Both the position numbers and the translations under genes were made by a program. The notes under the pieces are model-generated. The model was not told the origin of the DNA. It was given only the letters and a program-made list of their open reading frames with translations, and did not search any database. A stretch of 26,699 nucleotides of DNA from a virus, in IMG/VR virus record IMGVR_UViG_3300009149_004804, positions 1 to 26,699 of that record; one strand, written 5' to 3'. Of this stretch, positions 1,144 through 26,218 are shown piece after piece (the first letter of the stretch is position 1; each line of letters begins with the position of its first letter).

Positions 1144-1521
1144 ATGGCATTAGTAAAACAAGCAACAAAAATTAGCATTGATAGCTCACAAATTCCATCC
1201 GGATACACTAATCCGGGCGGAACAAATTTAGCAAGTTCTCAACCAACATACCTTAATAAGTCTTTTTCGATAATAAAATCAACGGTAGACGATTCAGTAA
1301 AAGCAACAACATTTGATCAGATTCTTTCTGATGTAACAATCGGAATTGAAAAACAAGTTGCGGATATGTTGACGGCTGATGATATCGGAACTACCGCAAC
1401 GGTAAATTACAATATTGATTGGAAGAAGATCGGTAACAATCAAGCTATTTCAGCCGACTTCTACAATGATACAGCTGTTAGTTACGTTGCTGTTGTCGAT
1501 GTTTATTTGAACTTTTCATAA
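1144..1521 (+). CDS. putative structural protein, 125 aa
   Basis: The 125-residue product is Ser/Thr/Asn-rich with alternating hydrophobic beta-strand-like stretches and no Cys, signal or membrane segment, as expected of a small virion protein. It starts at an ATG after a typical leader ending in ACAATATC and is followed by the next gene after only 7 nt. Its 5' part (1170-1198, encoding ISIDSSQIP) is repeated exactly at 3260-3288, outside a coding frame. Family not recognised; late-operon position supports a tail or head appendage role by inference. Confidence 0.6.
   Translation: MALVKQATKISIDSSQIPSGYTNPGGTNLASSQPTYLNKSFSIIKSTVDDSVKATTFDQILSDVTIGIEKQVADMLTADDIGTTATVNYNIDWKKIGNNQAISADFYNDTAVSYVAVVDVYLNFS
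1170..1198 (+). repeat. 29-bp exact direct repeat, copy 1 (coding)
   Basis: This stretch lies inside the 1144-1521 gene and is identical over 29 nt to 3260-3288. The copies are 2090 nt apart in the same orientation. The first copy is translated as part of a SIDSSQIP sequence. Confidence 0.9.
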
Positions 1522-2497: not shown

Positions 2498-3265
2498 ATG
2501 GCAATAAATGACAGAAACGAGGCTATAGCAGAGGTTAATGCTGCTATTGTTGATTCTCCAAAAGTTTCAACAGCTACACATAGAGACTTGCTTAATGACA
2601 AGATATTAAGTAGTGTTCAGTTTAGGAAGGACGTTACTGGAATCGAAACGCCCTCAGGAGGGAATGTAGTAGTTAGTTTTCTGACCAAAGATTTTGCAAC
2701 AATTACTACATCTTCAAACATTTCAATTTCGGTGACAGATTTACCAGATGGAGATATTAAGTATATTGCATTAACAAAAAACGCAGGGAATACGGTTTCT
2801 TTTTCAGGAATAACCGACGTATCAGCAAGGCGTGACTATGTTGATACAGAAGCAACCTATATAGTTTACAGAATTACTAGCAAGAATAGCAATATCTACG
2901 CTGTCACAGTCAATATTGATAATGATGAAAATATTGCTGGACTTACAGGCGATGTGTCGAAAGTGGTTACCACTTATTCAGGTTGGAATATGGACACAAC
3001 ATTGTCTGTATTAGTTAGCTGGCCTTCTGGTGTAACATTTGCTAATTTTTTATCGGCAGAGGTTACAATCAAGAGTAATGCAGGTACTGGCAAGTATCCA
3101 TTGTTGTCTGGATTTGGCGGTTCTGGGTTTCTCTCTGGCTTAGGTGGTTCTTATGTTGCTGAATTGTCCGGCCTTACTTTATACCGGGGTGATGTTGGCG
3201 GATTTTTTGATGATGCGCAATTCAATAATGCAGATGTTGAAATATTTATAAAATATAATAATTAG
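2498..3265 (+). CDS. fibre-like protein, paralog A
   Basis: The 255-residue product is a paralog of the next gene. Shared blocks in the same order are MAIN at the start, ATHRxLLN near 27-33, a FRKDV segment near 42, KDxATIT near 67, DGDxKYxxLTKNAGN near 84-98, and a YxGWNMDTT segment near 160. Both end in a Gly/Ser-rich region followed by a short strand and an IFxKY terminus. The pattern is that of a beta-rich tail fibre or receptor-binding accessory protein. The stop codon lies inside copy 2 of a 29-bp repeat. Fibre function is inferred from composition and position. Confidence 0.65.
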   Translation: MAINDRNEAIAEVNAAIVDSPKVSTATHRDLLNDKILSSVQFRKDVTGIETPSGGNVVVSFLTKDFATITTSSNISISVTDLPDGDIKYIALTKNAGNTVSFSGITDVSARRDYVDTEATYIVYRITSKNSNIYAVTVNIDNDENIAGLTGDVSKVVTTYSGWNMDTTLSVLVSWPSGVTFANFLSAEVTIKSNAGTGKYPLLSGFGGSGFLSGLGGSYVAELSGLTLYRGDVGGFFDDAQFNNADVEIFIKYNN

Positions 3266-3288
3266 CATTGATAGCTCACAAATTCCAT
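3260..3288 (+). repeat. 29-bp exact direct repeat, copy 2 (intergenic)
   Basis: This is identical to 1170-1198. It supplies the stop codon (TAG at 3263-3265) of paralog A and fills almost all of the gap before paralog B. A shorter, degenerate version occurs near 3423-3440 inside paralog B, where it encodes IDSQIP. Confidence 0.9.
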
Positions 3289-3293
3289 GCATA

Positions 3294-4082
3294 ATGGCAA
3301 TAAATAGAACGGAAACAGTGCAACAGGTAAATGTAAAGATTGTGCCTACAGTTTTTACGGCAACCCATAGGGGTTTGCTGAATGTTGATATAATTGATAG
3401 TCTTGTTTTCCGTAAGGATGTAATTGATAGCCAAATTCCAGTGGGAGGTAGTGAGGTTGTTGATTTTTCAGACAAAGATCTTGCTACGATTACAGTAACC
3501 GTAAACACATCAATATCATTTGCCAACATTCCAGACGGAGATACTAAGTATTTGGAGTTAACAAAAAATGCAGGAAACTTAATATCTTTTACTGGATCTA
3601 TAGATGTATCGCAGCGAAAAGATTATATAAATACCACCTCTACATTTATTGTCTACGAGGTAATAAGGAAGGGGTTGGTACTATATGTTAATAGCATTAA
3701 TATAGACAAGGATCGTGAATTAAACAGGCTTACAGGGGAGGTGTTAAAGCAAACGATTGAGTACACAGGGTGGAATATGGATACAACATCATTTGTTTCT
3801 ATGATTCTTCCAGACGAAATCACGTTTGACAAGTTTATTTCTGCCGAAATATCTATAAAATCAAGTTTCAGTAACAAGTTGTATCCATTTCTTAGTGGGT
3901 TTGTAGATGTTGGTGGAAGTACGGGTTTTGGAGGATCTTATACTGCTAGTTTCTACACATCAGGCCCTAATGTAGGGAAGTCAGTTTTATTCTTATATAG
4001 AGGTCCGGATAGTACAAGTGCATTTGATAGCTCTTCCTTTACAAACGCAACAGCATATATTTTTGTGAAATATAGACAATAA
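3294..4082 (+). CDS. fibre-like protein, paralog B
   Basis: The 262-residue product matches paralog A (2498-3265) along its whole length with shared blocks at ATHRxLLN, FRKDV, KDxATIT, DGDTKYLELTKNAGN and YTGWNMDTT. It diverges mainly at the Gly/Ser-rich C-terminal part (residues about 205-250). That pattern, a conserved N-terminal body and more variable distal end, is usual for receptor-binding or fibre proteins of phages, though this is inference. The gene starts 28 nt after paralog A and ends 5 nt before the next gene. No membrane segment or enzymatic motif is visible. Confidence 0.65.
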   Translation: MAINRTETVQQVNVKIVPTVFTATHRGLLNVDIIDSLVFRKDVIDSQIPVGGSEVVDFSDKDLATITVTVNTSISFANIPDGDTKYLELTKNAGNLISFTGSIDVSQRKDYINTTSTFIVYEVIRKGLVLYVNSINIDKDRELNRLTGEVLKQTIEYTGWNMDTTSFVSMILPDEITFDKFISAEISIKSSFSNKLYPFLSGFVDVGGSTGFGGSYTASFYTSGPNVGKSVLFLYRGPDSTSAFDSSSFTNATAYIFVKYRQ

Positions 4083-10485: not shown

Positions 10486-10526
10486 AGTGTATTACGTATA
10501 CACAACATTCATATACACATATGTTA
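10486..10526. repeat. ~42-nt imperfect direct repeat, copy 1
   Basis: The copy at 10486-10526 matches 10751-10793 with one 2-nt indel and a few substitutions. It contains the inverted pair GTGTAT...ATACAC (10487-10503) and two TATACACA boxes, and covers the stop codon of the minus-strand gene at 10524-10736. A further small palindrome, CATAT-ACAC-ATATG, lies at 10510-10523. Confidence 0.85.
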
Positions 10527-10736
10527 GCGTTCATTGCTTAGTAGTACATATTTAACTAAGTCTTTTGCTAACTGCCTTTCTTCATCGTATATTGGGTTTC
10601 TAACTCTTGTAGGATGTTCGCCTCTAATTATCATTAATTTATCAAGTGCTGTTTCAATTTGACTCTCGTGAGGCAACACGCTGATACTAAATAAACCCAA
10701 TAAAATTTTATCCGCTTCATCTATCGTCTTTTTCAT
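10524..10736 (-). CDS. hypothetical protein on minus strand, 70 aa
   Basis: The start is taken at the ATG of MKKTIDEAD; the open frame continues 13 codons upstream through the flanking repeat, which is less likely to be coding. The 70-residue product is mainly helical and charged: an N-terminal helix, a HESQIETALDKLMII helix, and a C-terminal EERQLAKDLVKYVLL helix. No family recognised. It is oriented against the surrounding late genes and bounded on both sides by the duplicated repeat, so it looks like part of an inserted unit together with the helix-turn-helix gene at 10816-11010. Confidence 0.6.
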   Translation of the reverse strand: MKKTIDEADKILLGLFSISVLPHESQIETALDKLMIIRGEHPTRVRNPIYDEERQLAKDLVKYVLLSNER

Positions 10737-10750
10737 AATTAAAATTTTAC

Positions 10751-10793
10751 AGTGTATTACGTTTATACACAACATTCGTATACACAGATATTA
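10751..10793. repeat. ~42-nt imperfect direct repeat, copy 2
   Basis: This is the second copy of the element at 10486-10526, 265 nt downstream. It lies just upstream (in transcription sense) of the minus-strand gene 10524-10736. It carries GTGTAT...ATACAC arms around 7 nt and two TATACACA boxes, consistent with a regulator-binding site in that gene's upstream region. Confidence 0.85.
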
Positions 10794-16900: not shown

Positions 16901-16933
16901 ATGCAAAATAATTAAAAATATGTGTAAATAAAC

Positions 16934-16969
16934 TTGTGTAATCAATTAATATGTGTTATATTTGTTACA
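16934..16969 (+). promoter_or_regulatory. early promoter P1 (extended TGTG/ACA type)
   Basis: A TTG box at 16934-16936, 20 nt, then TATATTTG at 16957-16964. The -7 box is embedded in the 18-mer TGTGTTATATTTGTTACA (16952-16969), shared in pattern with three other sites. It follows the late terminator and precedes the gene at 16995. Confidence 0.8.
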
Positions 16970-16994
16970 GATTAATAAACGAAAAATTAGCAAA

Positions 16995-20035: not shown

Positions 20036-20056
20036 CATTAAATTGTGTAACAAATA

Positions 20057-20093
20057 TTTGCACAGGTAAATAATATGTGTTACTTTTGATACA
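20057..20093 (+). promoter_or_regulatory. early promoter P2 (extended TGTG/ACA type)
   Basis: TTTG at 20057-20060, exactly 20 nt, then TACTTTTG at 20081-20088, inside TGTGTTACTTTTGATACA (20076-20093). The gene start is 17 nt after the motif. Confidence 0.85.
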
Positions 20094-20109
20094 AATAAAA
20101 TAAAGCAAT

Positions 20110-20912: not shown

Positions 20913-20964
20913 AAATTACGCCTAACAATTGATATGTCTAAGTTTGCATATACAATAAATTAAA

Positions 20965-21001
20965 TTTGCAAAATCAAACAATATGTGTTATCTTTAATAC
21001 A
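20965..21001 (+). promoter_or_regulatory. early promoter P3 (extended TGTG/ACA type)
   Basis: TTTG at 20965-20968, exactly 20 nt, then TATCTTTA at 20989-20996 (last base differs from consensus), inside TGTGTTATCTTTAATACA (20984-21001). A 77-nt leader follows in which CCACC and GGTGG could pair. Confidence 0.8.
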
Positions 21002-21078
21002 GGATTAAGCCACCTACCAGCCACGATAAAAATGGACTTTGGTGGTGAAAGTAATTAGTAATTTAAAAATAAAGCAAG

Positions 21079-22545: not shown

Positions 22546-22575
22546 GTTGTAAAATTCGTTTTAATGTTTTACAAC
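22546..22575 (+). other. 9-bp inverted repeat downstream of the membrane-peptide gene
   Basis: GTTGTAAAA and TTTTACAAC pair perfectly around a 12-nt loop, 21 nt after the stop codon. The following bases begin the 46-nt intergenic repeat (22577). It may act as a terminator stem or a boundary of a mobile unit. Confidence 0.5.
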
Positions 22576-22576
22576 G

Positions 22577-22622
22577 CTTGAACAAACACAGTGCGAAGTG
22601 TTGTTGTTTTATTTACTGTTAT
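22577..22622. repeat. 46-nt intergenic repeat, copy 1
   Basis: This matches 24114-24159 with one mismatch, and weaker similarity continues a few bases on each side. It contains AACAAACAC...GTGTTGTT (stem with one bulge) followed by GTTTTATTT, so it could be a terminator. Each copy precedes a promoter region. Confidence 0.85.
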
Positions 22623-22665
22623 TCTTCGTTAATTATCAGCTACTTACAAAATAAAGTAAAAATAA

Positions 22666-22719
22666 TCGGAAAATAAACCCGTTTTTATTTGGTAGTTCGG
22701 AAAATAAACCCGATATTTG
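22666..22719 (+). promoter_or_regulatory. twin operator-like boxes and possible -7 element
   Basis: The 16-mer TCGGAAAATAAACCCG occurs at 22666-22681 and again at 22697-22712, 31 nt apart (about three helical turns). Each has CGG and CCG ends in dyad symmetry. The second box abuts GATATTTG (22712-22719), one mismatch from the -7 consensus. This would serve the gene at 22776. The rest of the 251-nt gap (22525-22775) holds the repeat and A/T-rich DNA, with no coding frame. Confidence 0.55.
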
Positions 22720-22775: not shown

Positions 22776-23051
22776 ATGAAAAATTTAAATTTTAAGATTG
22801 CAGTGACAGGTAGAGATAGAATGTATGATTTTATTAATGTTTCTTGCAATACTGAAACAAGAGATATTGAGGCCGTTGCAGTAATAATAAAAGGCAAATA
22901 TACAGGAATATCATTTACAGAGTTTGCCCCTGCTTTTAATAACCTTGATTTAATTTTCAGTACATCAGACTTCGATCAGAATATTTGTGATGAAATCGAG
23001 ACGTGGTTGAGCGAAGATGGTGAATTAGAAGTGTTTTGCTCTATTCCCTAA
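22776..23051 (+). CDS. hypothetical protein, 91 aa
   Basis: The 91-residue product is acidic with a beta-rich N-terminal half (NFKIAVTGRDRMYDFINVSCNTETRDIEAVAVIIKGKY) and an alpha/beta C-terminal half (FDQNICDEIETWLSEDGELEVFCSIP). No catalytic motif, signal or membrane segment. The leader is TTAAAAAACTAAAAAG. It lies downstream of the twin operator boxes and is followed 6 nt later by the next gene. Confidence 0.6.
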   Translation: MKNLNFKIAVTGRDRMYDFINVSCNTETRDIEAVAVIIKGKYTGISFTEFAPAFNNLDLIFSTSDFDQNICDEIETWLSEDGELEVFCSIP

Positions 23052-24099: not shown

Positions 24100-24113
24100 G
24101 CTTGTGCCTAACA

Positions 24114-24159
24114 CTTGAACAAACACAGTGCGAAGTATTGTTGTTTTATTTACTGTTAT
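24114..24159. repeat. 46-nt intergenic repeat, copy 2
   Basis: This is the second copy of the element at 22577-22622, in the same orientation, 1537 nt further on. The single internal mismatch falls in the would-be stem and weakens it, which argues against a conserved hairpin. It lies 14 nt after the DUF551-like gene. Confidence 0.85.
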
Positions 24160-24201
24160 CACTTGTTAATTTTTGTTAAAAATACAAATATATCCATTTA
24201 T

Positions 24202-24252
24202 TTTGTAGTATACTCTTTGACTATTAGAAATAGTCACTATATTTGTAGTATA
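24202..24252 (+). promoter_or_regulatory. promoter P4 with dyad operator in the spacer
   Basis: TTTG at 24216-24219 and a perfect TATATTTG at 24238-24245 are 18 nt apart. The spacer is almost filled by TGACTATT-AGA-AATAGTCA (24218-24236), a perfect 8-bp dyad with 3-nt centre. The direct repeat TTTGTAGTATA occurs at 24202-24212 and 24242-24252, bracketing the dyad. It precedes the gene at 24275 by 30 nt and is unlike the TGTG/ACA type. Confidence 0.75.
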
Positions 24253-24274: not shown

Positions 24275-24589
24275 ATGACAACTTTAGAAAATGCAATTAA
24301 CGAAGCAATTAAAGAAAAAAAAGACGGTTTTATTATGGCAATCCCAGAAACAAAAACCATCGATGACAAAGAGTTTGTAGACCTGGTTAGTGCGCTGTAT
24401 GATTACAGTATATCGCTTGATATGGCACGAAAAATCAGAGAGTCCGATAACTATGAATCAAGTATTTGTATTGTTTGGGATGACAGCGAAAAAAGCGAGC
24501 TATTAGAAGAGTGTGAAACAGGAATTAAACAATTGATAGGGGGATACGGATGGAAAGGGATTTCAGGTTATAAATTCATTGCAGAATAA
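24275..24589 (+). CDS. small acidic protein sharing a 32-aa segment with RecT, 104 aa
   Basis: The 104-residue product has an N-terminal helix (TLENAINEAIKEKKDGF), then residues 22-53 (AIPETKTIDDKEF...MARK), which are nearly identical to RecT residues 255-286 below. A C-terminal part (YESSICIVWDDSEKSELLEECETGIKQLIGGYGWKG) looks like a small alpha/beta fold. M20 at 24332 is an alternative start. It has its own promoter with operator. Function unknown; the shared segment may be a helical module or interaction tag. Confidence 0.65.
   Translation: MTTLENAINEAIKEKKDGFIMAIPETKTIDDKEFVDLVSALYDYSISLDMARKIRESDNYESSICIVWDDSEKSELLEECETGIKQLIGGYGWKGISGYKFIAE
24344..24434 (+). repeat. 91-bp near-exact repeat, copy 1
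   Basis: This region and 25922-26012 are identical at 90 of 91 positions (T at 24378, C at 25956), in the same orientation and the same reading frame, changing Val to Ala. Confidence 0.95.
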
Positions 24590-24647
24590 TTAAAACAAAA
24601 AGGCTGAAATCAAACGAAAGTAGGCCTAATTAAAATCTAAAAAAATC

Positions 24648-24851
24648 ATGACAAAAAAAGAAATTAAAGAAGGATTCGAAGACCAGACACGTTACACTTT
24701 GAATTGTGGGATGGAAGTTCCAGAATGCACAAAAATTGCAAGATTAGTAGAGTTCCAAGGGGAACGTTTTGGCTTTTTCGGCACAACGAAAAAGGAAAAA
24801 ATAAACTTCGCATACAGTAATTGTGAATTGCTATCAAAACACGATGTGTAA
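24648..24851 (+). CDS. hypothetical protein, 67 aa
   Basis: The 67-residue product begins MTKKEIKEGFEDQTRYTLNCGMEVPECTKIARLVEFQGERFGFFGTT and ends in a short charged tail. It is beta-rich and contains three Cys without a clear metal site. Its TAA shares one base with the ATG of the next gene (TAATG), so the two are coupled. No family recognised. Confidence 0.6.
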   Translation: MTKKEIKEGFEDQTRYTLNCGMEVPECTKIARLVEFQGERFGFFGTTKKEKINFAYSNCELLSKHDV

Positions 24852-25039
24852 TGATTTGGGCGATAAACAAAAAAGACAATACTCCTTACATTTTTGGGAG
24901 TATTGCCGCTTTATCTGAAAAACTAGAGATTAATTCAGGAACTTTATATAATTATTTTTCTAGAAATAAAAAAAACGAGTACGAGAACGACGATTATAGA
25001 TTAGTAAAATGTAAGGTTATTCGCTCAGTTCGTAATTAG
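24851..25039 (+). CDS. small helix-turn-helix-like protein, 62 aa
   Basis: The 62-residue product contains SIAALSEKLEINSGTLYNYFSRNKKNEY (about 17-44), which has the pattern of a short DNA-binding helix-turn-helix with TLYNYF as recognition helix. A strand and basic tail follow (DDYRLVKCKVIRSVRN). Similar small proteins are common in Bacteroidota phages. It may regulate the nearby recT promoter, which lies 62 nt downstream, but that is inference. Confidence 0.6.
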   Translation: MIWAINKKDNTPYIFGSIAALSEKLEINSGTLYNYFSRNKKNEYENDDYRLVKCKVIRSVRN

Positions 25040-25100
25040 CGATAACATATGTATAAGGCAGATAATCAAAGAATCGAACAATGTTAAAATGGCATTTTAA

Positions 25101-25137
25101 TTTGAAAGATCAAATAAATTGTGTTAAATTTGACACA
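25101..25137 (+). promoter_or_regulatory. early promoter P5 for recT (extended TGTG/ACA type)
   Basis: TTTG at 25101-25104, exactly 20 nt, then TAAATTTG at 25125-25132, inside TGTGTTAAATTTGACACA (25120-25137). Including flanking bases this copy is nearly a full palindrome, TTGTGTTAAATTTGACACAA, with one non-symmetric pair, so it could be an operator as well. The recT ATG follows after 16 nt. Confidence 0.9.
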
Positions 25138-25153
25138 AATAAAAATAGAACAA

Positions 25154-26218
25154 ATGAATAACATAAAAAAAGCATTAGTGCCGAACTTGAAGGACAAGGC
25201 GGTAAAAGATATTGTTGCCCTAATCGACGATGTTTACAAGAGCAACGATCTATCAACTGAATTGGAACTCCAATTTATTCAGCTAAAAATTAGTGAGAGT
25301 CCAGCCCTTACCAGGGCAGCAAAAGTTAATCCAGAAAGCCTGTATAATTCAATACTTCAAGCTGCCGAATGTGGGCTATCTCTTAATCCGCAATGGCAGG
25401 AGGGATATTTTGTCCCGTACATGAAAATTGACGGCAAAGAAGTTCCTACTGTGACATTTTCACCAATGTATAGGGGTAAAAAAAAGCTACTCATTTCAAA
25501 AGGAATTGTGACCAATATTACCACACAATTAGTATATGAAGGTGAATTTTTTGACGAAGATATCATAAATGGAGTTCACGAAATAAAACACAAGCCTAAT
25601 AGCTTCAATAGGGCTAATCACGATAAAATAATTGGCGGATATGCGACCATAACCCTGAACAATGGTAGTATTCAATATGTAGTAAAAGGTCGAGACTACT
25701 TCGAACGATGCAAAGCTGCAAGTGCTCAAAAAATGAACGGCAAAACCTCTCCTGCTTGGAGGAATTGGTATGATCAAATGTGCAAGAAATGTCTTATTAA
25801 TGCTGCTGACTCTGAGATACCAAAAATCGGAGTTAACGCAAAAACGGCTAAGTTGCTTAATGATACCAATACGAATGATATCGACTATGTTGATGTATCG
25901 AACGACAACCAATCAGCCATTCCAGAAACAAAAACCATCGATGACAAAGAGTTTGCAGACCTGGTTAGTGCGCTGTATGATTACAGTATATCGCTTGATA
26001 TGGCACGAAAAAAGTATTCAGGTATTAGTTTCACCGAAATTCAAAAAGCCCAAATAAAAGAGGCGGGAACAATTACACCGGAACGTCTCGACGAAATCAT
26101 AAATTTAGTATTAGAAGATGACAGTTTTGATATTACTAATTTTGAGCTAATATTAGACGAAAAACAATTAAACGAAGTACAACAAGCAATAATTGATAAA
26201 GCGACTAAAAATGGATAA
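25154..26218 (+). CDS. recT: RecT-family single-strand annealing protein
   Basis: The 354-residue protein anneals complementary single strands in recombination, partnered by the RecE-like nuclease. RecT motifs: LYNSILQAAECGLSLNPQWQEGYFVPY (about 60-90), TFSPMYRGKKKLLISKG (about 97-113), VYEGEFF (about 123-130), and WRNWYDQMCKKCLINAADSEIPK (about 203-225). The start is set at MNNIKKAL, because an earlier in-frame ATG at 25121 falls inside promoter P5. The C-terminal tail is unusual: residues 255-286 are nearly identical to part of the gene at 24275, then another 68 residues follow. The 3' end overlaps the next gene by 8 nt. Confidence 0.9.
   Translation: MNNIKKALVPNLKDKAVKDIVALIDDVYKSNDLSTELELQFIQLKISESPALTRAAKVNPESLYNSILQAAECGLSLNPQWQEGYFVPYMKIDGKEVPTVTFSPMYRGKKKLLISKGIVTNITTQLVYEGEFFDEDIINGVHEIKHKPNSFNRANHDKIIGGYATITLNNGSIQYVVKGRDYFERCKAASAQKMNGKTSPAWRNWYDQMCKKCLINAADSEIPKIGVNAKTAKLLNDTNTNDIDYVDVSNDNQSAIPETKTIDDKEFADLVSALYDYSISLDMARKKYSGISFTEIQKAQIKEAGTITPERLDEIINLVLEDDSFDITNFELILDEKQLNEVQQAIIDKATKNG
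25922..26012 (+). repeat. 91-bp near-exact repeat, copy 2 (in recT)
   Basis: This is the partner of 24344-24434, located after the conserved RecT core. The shared block begins and ends abruptly on both sides, so it was copied as a discrete segment. Confidence 0.95.

Follow-up and report, generated by a model that had tools for sequence, protein, structure and literature searches.

Several described systems come close to the locus considered here. Short non-tandem duplications, whether called templated or ectopic, arise by template switching or single-strand annealing. Researchers have found that Rad52-like phage recombinases carry out relaxed recombination in which divergence is tolerated, and 23-27 bp of identity is cited as enough for Red-beta (PMC3945230). 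In Red-beta, moreover, the C-terminal domain is required for recombination and for contact with the exonuclease Red-alpha (PMC5052646). The window, a single linear virus contig whose 26,699 bases make up an entire IMG/VR virus record, contains a repeat block that is likewise short, sharp-edged, near-identical and direct, with its candidate donor nearby, in a phage that also carries such a recombinase. It differs from the templated duplications in that the event is one that we infer, and from the system of PMC3945230 in that the latter concerns exchange between related sequences, whereas here there is no sign of homology outside the block. We consider that the block probably arose when a short piece of DNA was recently copied over a small distance within the phage genome, most likely from the C-terminal coding region of recT into a small gene 1.58 kb upstream.

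The first-pass annotation had reported a 91-bp block shared in frame by a small early gene and the C-terminus of recT, and this was confirmed: 90 of the 91 bases are identical between the two copies (Table 1), on the same strand and in the same codon phase, and 32 residues (AIPETK...MARK) are common to both proteins when two codons 5' of the block are included. The sole mismatch, T at 24378 against C at 25956, exchanges Val and Ala, and the exact runs within the block are 34 and 56 nt long. The self-match of the block within the window gave a BLASTN E value of 1.4e-40, and the longest chance repeat in 40 first-order Markov windows was 44 nt at no less than 80% identity. The edges are sharp, identity dropping to random level at both ends: the two codons just 5' of the block read GCA ATC in one copy and GCC ATT in the other, both differences being synonymous, so that four of the six upstream bases match, and further upstream and directly downstream the identity is that of chance. 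The pair thus combines near-identical DNA, sharp edges and unrelated flanks, as a templated duplication does. Across the 30 whole codons inside the block there is not one synonymous difference and a single amino-acid change, which therefore points to recent copying at the DNA level, or to wrong assembly, rather than to an old shared domain.

Table 1 Features of the window discussed in the text
Feature	Position	Strand	Remark
Bacteroidota-type promoter match (TTTG-N-TAnnTTTG) before the small gene	24216..24245	+	GACTATT/AATAGTC inverted repeat in spacer; suggestive only
Small early gene, 104 aa, no detectable relatives	24275..24589	+	
Repeat block, small-gene copy	24344..24434	+	codons 24-53 plus one base
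Bacteroidota-type promoter match before recT	25101..25132	+	overlaps TGTGTTAAATTTGACACA palindrome
recT, predicted RecT-family single-strand annealing protein, 354 aa	25154..26218	+	ATG at 25154; C-terminal extension about 100 aa
Repeat block, recT copy	25922..26012	+	codons 257-286 plus one base
Second dispersed repeat, copy 1	22573..22634	+	intergenic, 62 nt, 90% identical to copy 2; before gene 22776
Second dispersed repeat, copy 2	24110..24171	+	intergenic, before the 104-aa gene
Third dispersed repeat, copy 1	1167..1198	+	coding, KISIDSSQIP; exact over 29 nt (1170-1198)
Third dispersed repeat, copy 2	3257..3288	+	exact 3260-3288; stop of gene 2498-3265 and leader of gene 3294-4082
Further direct repeat	10486-10526 / 10751-10793		88%, 43-nt near repeat; flanks minus-strand gene 10524-10775

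Wrong assembly would mean that one copy is chimeric or wrongly joined, an artefact of assembling or amplifying metagenomic DNA. In favour of this, the record is one linear contig, and a second contig with the segment was looked for and not found. We nevertheless regard this as very unlikely, because the copies differ by one base, each lies in a complete open gene, similar repeats occur elsewhere in the record, and any k-mer longer than 56, the length of the longest exact run, would let an assembly graph keep the two copies apart. Extremely improbable is the idea that the block serves as a DNA-level element, a site or structure needed in two places; the identity does hold at the DNA level, wobble positions included, but neither strand folds better than its shuffles (z -0.43 and -0.62), there is no third copy in the window, and both copies fall within coding regions.

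The 354-aa protein is, by family profile and predicted fold, a RecT-family annealase: it scored 85.7 bits against Pfam RecT PF03837 (cut-off 24), E 4e-39 against phrog_148 and 59.5 bits against TIGR00616 (cut-off 52.65), and its predicted core fold was matched by Foldseek to 7ub2, the RecT of Listeria phage A118 (E 5.1e-7, TM 0.69 by target). This likeness to the RecT/Red-beta family covers the core, residues about 15-243. In contrast to the family, the protein carries some 100 additional C-terminal residues with the block inside them, and alignment scans of about 100 distant RecTs showed that none of those examined has this tail. A regular expression for the tail motif, applied to other loci, gave nothing useful, but it missed the window's own copy too and so has no evidential weight. 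Just past the block, the recT peptide KYSGISFTEI resembles KYTGISFTEF of the gene at 22776-23051, but their DNA has diverged and we attribute the similarity to chance. The RecT and the head proteins have their nearest relatives, about 22-34% identical, in Bacteroides and Cellulophaga phages, and a tape measure protein, a portal and a head protease were recognised in the window. The record thus comes from a distant siphovirus-like phage, probably of a Bacteroidota-type host, the host being judged from these relatives and from promoter-like TTTG/TAnnTTTG sites; matches to the Bacteroidota-type promoter numbered 4 in the window against 1.6 expected, which is suggestive only. Because such a promoter-like site lies just upstream of each, the small gene and recT each appear to be a true early gene with expression of its own.

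Relatives of either gene proved scarce. The 104-aa protein had no significant match in phages, plasmids, IMG/VR, Pfam, PHROGs or NCBIfam, and about 1200 Bacteroidota genomes returned only noise when searched with the small gene and only distant RecTs when searched with RecT. A search of IMG/VR found no close relatives of the small gene, RecT, the major capsid-like protein, the portal or the exonuclease. Closing up the small protein over the removed block and searching again for relatives brought up weak PHROG matches (E 0.03-0.3), but arbitrary excisions elsewhere matched equally well, and we therefore set these matches aside as evidence. The first-pass annotation had proposed that related phages would tell which copy is ancestral. 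In this comparison the RecT relatives (at most about 34% identical) had no extension and the 104-aa protein had no detectable relatives; the modelling that it also proposed leans towards recT as the donor. Since neither gene is seen in its pre-copying state in any relative, the direction is read from internal evidence, namely the models, the composition and the ATC-bounded unit, and on these we lean, weakly, to recT as the donor.

In the RecT model (mean pLDDT 80, 61-65 around the block), the block supplies the helices at residues 264-276 and 281-287, which are followed by a helix at 293-304 outside the block. The small protein was modelled from its single sequence (pLDDT 52); there the block forms a helix between two strands and its second half is unstructured. 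The block may therefore fit a predicted helical mini-domain in RecT, yet this is cut midway in the small protein, a weak indication given the low confidence of both models in these parts. The GC3 of the block (0.37) is like that of the recT core (0.36), and the small-gene flanks have 0.22 and 0.31; this would weakly favour recT as the donor, the composition being taken from 90 bases, but the recT tail after the block, at 0.22, is unlike the block. In the small gene, finally, the block is a 30-codon unit with an ATC codon on either side. The opposite direction, in which the small gene had the block first and the C-terminal extension of recT received it as a patch, seems to us rather unlikely. 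The placement of the block between two strands in the small-protein model would suit it, as would the missing extension in every RecT relative examined, which implies that the extension, or part of it, was added to RecT; against it, the predicted RecT helices continue past the 3' edge of the block as one mini-domain, and the composition of the block is nearer to that of the recT core.

A different reason for the two copies would be a shared functional peptide, the same helix pair in both proteins binding a common partner (the exonuclease, the host SSB or each other), so that the small protein would serve the RecT recombination complex as an adaptor or act on it as a decoy. Since Red-beta requires its C-terminal domain to contact its exonuclease (PMC5052646), it is reasonable by analogy to regard the RecT tail as a possible interaction module; the phage also encodes an exonuclease VIII-like DUF3799 protein, and both genes keep the reading frame. 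Nevertheless, we find a functional peptide quite unlikely, as persistence by selection is not demonstrated when synonymous drift is missing, the small protein has only a cut version of the predicted RecT mini-domain, and the segment is absent from every family model and relative. Searches with the segment in phages, PHROGs, Pfam and NCBIfam gave no match, and it was not found to recur elsewhere as a complete unit; the one viral pattern match lay in a large unrelated protein and was due to chance. The suggestion of an exchangeable interaction tag, made in the first-pass annotation, is thus left unsupported. Highly improbable, in our view, is the specific form of this idea in which the annealase gave its C-terminal partner-binding helices to the small early protein as an adaptor or decoy for the recombination complex; if true, such a donation would be a natural example of a recombinase that itself spreads an interaction module.

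The alternative offered in the same annotation, a recent recombination product, agrees with the evidence: there are no synonymous changes, the edges are sharp, and the record holds other short dispersed direct repeats, of which one is clearly not conserved at the peptide level. This is the 29-nt repeat, whose second copy falls between two tandem paralogous genes and takes in the stop codon of the first and the leader of the next; its reading context there is unrelated, and the copying process therefore acts on DNA. Such nearby short direct repeats favour local template switching or annealing errors over selection for the peptide. The partners of all four direct-repeat pairs in the record, the block included, lie at most 2.1 kb apart, and the probability of this under random placement in the record is about 5e-4 (a post hoc calculation). 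Among other loci totalling about 1 Mb, repeats that reached 60 nt and 90% identity were rare, the few found being mostly at contig ends or in tandem. Some of the other repeats in the record may be operator or promoter copies; the 62-nt intergenic repeat has no stable fold.

For the recent local copy that we prefer, a single strand from the recT region, newly synthesised or processed, would anneal, or switch template, at the small gene, where the 5' edge of the block offers microhomology (GCnATnCC, for example). A patch of 90 nt (30 codons) would be left in the small gene and tolerated because the reading frame is kept. The phage's own annealase could be the copying agent, which is plausible, though unproven, as enzymes of this kind can pair sequences that are short and divergent (PMC3945230). 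Conservation of the frame on both sides speaks against this account to the extent that it needs luck or selection, and the block is probably an accident without function. If the reading is right, the block would be a recent example of short in-frame DNA patches moving between unrelated genes within one phage genome, and such movement would be one way to new protein chimeras. By itself, the block leaves current views of RecT and of phage evolution unchanged.

Some further features of the record were also observed. The adjacent genes at 2498-3265 and 3294-4082, in the structural region, are paralogous, with 49% protein identity. A 122-aa protein encoded at 23731-24099 matches Pfam DUF551 (28.4 bits; cut-off 22). 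Four related, partly palindromic promoter-like stretches (TGTGTTAnnTTTGanACA) at 16926-16970, 20050-20094, 20958-21002 and 25094-25138 stand before different genes, recT among them, and look like an operator family of one phage regulator. At 22667-22712, before gene 22776, TCGGAAAATAAACCCG occurs twice, close together, around a promoter-like site.
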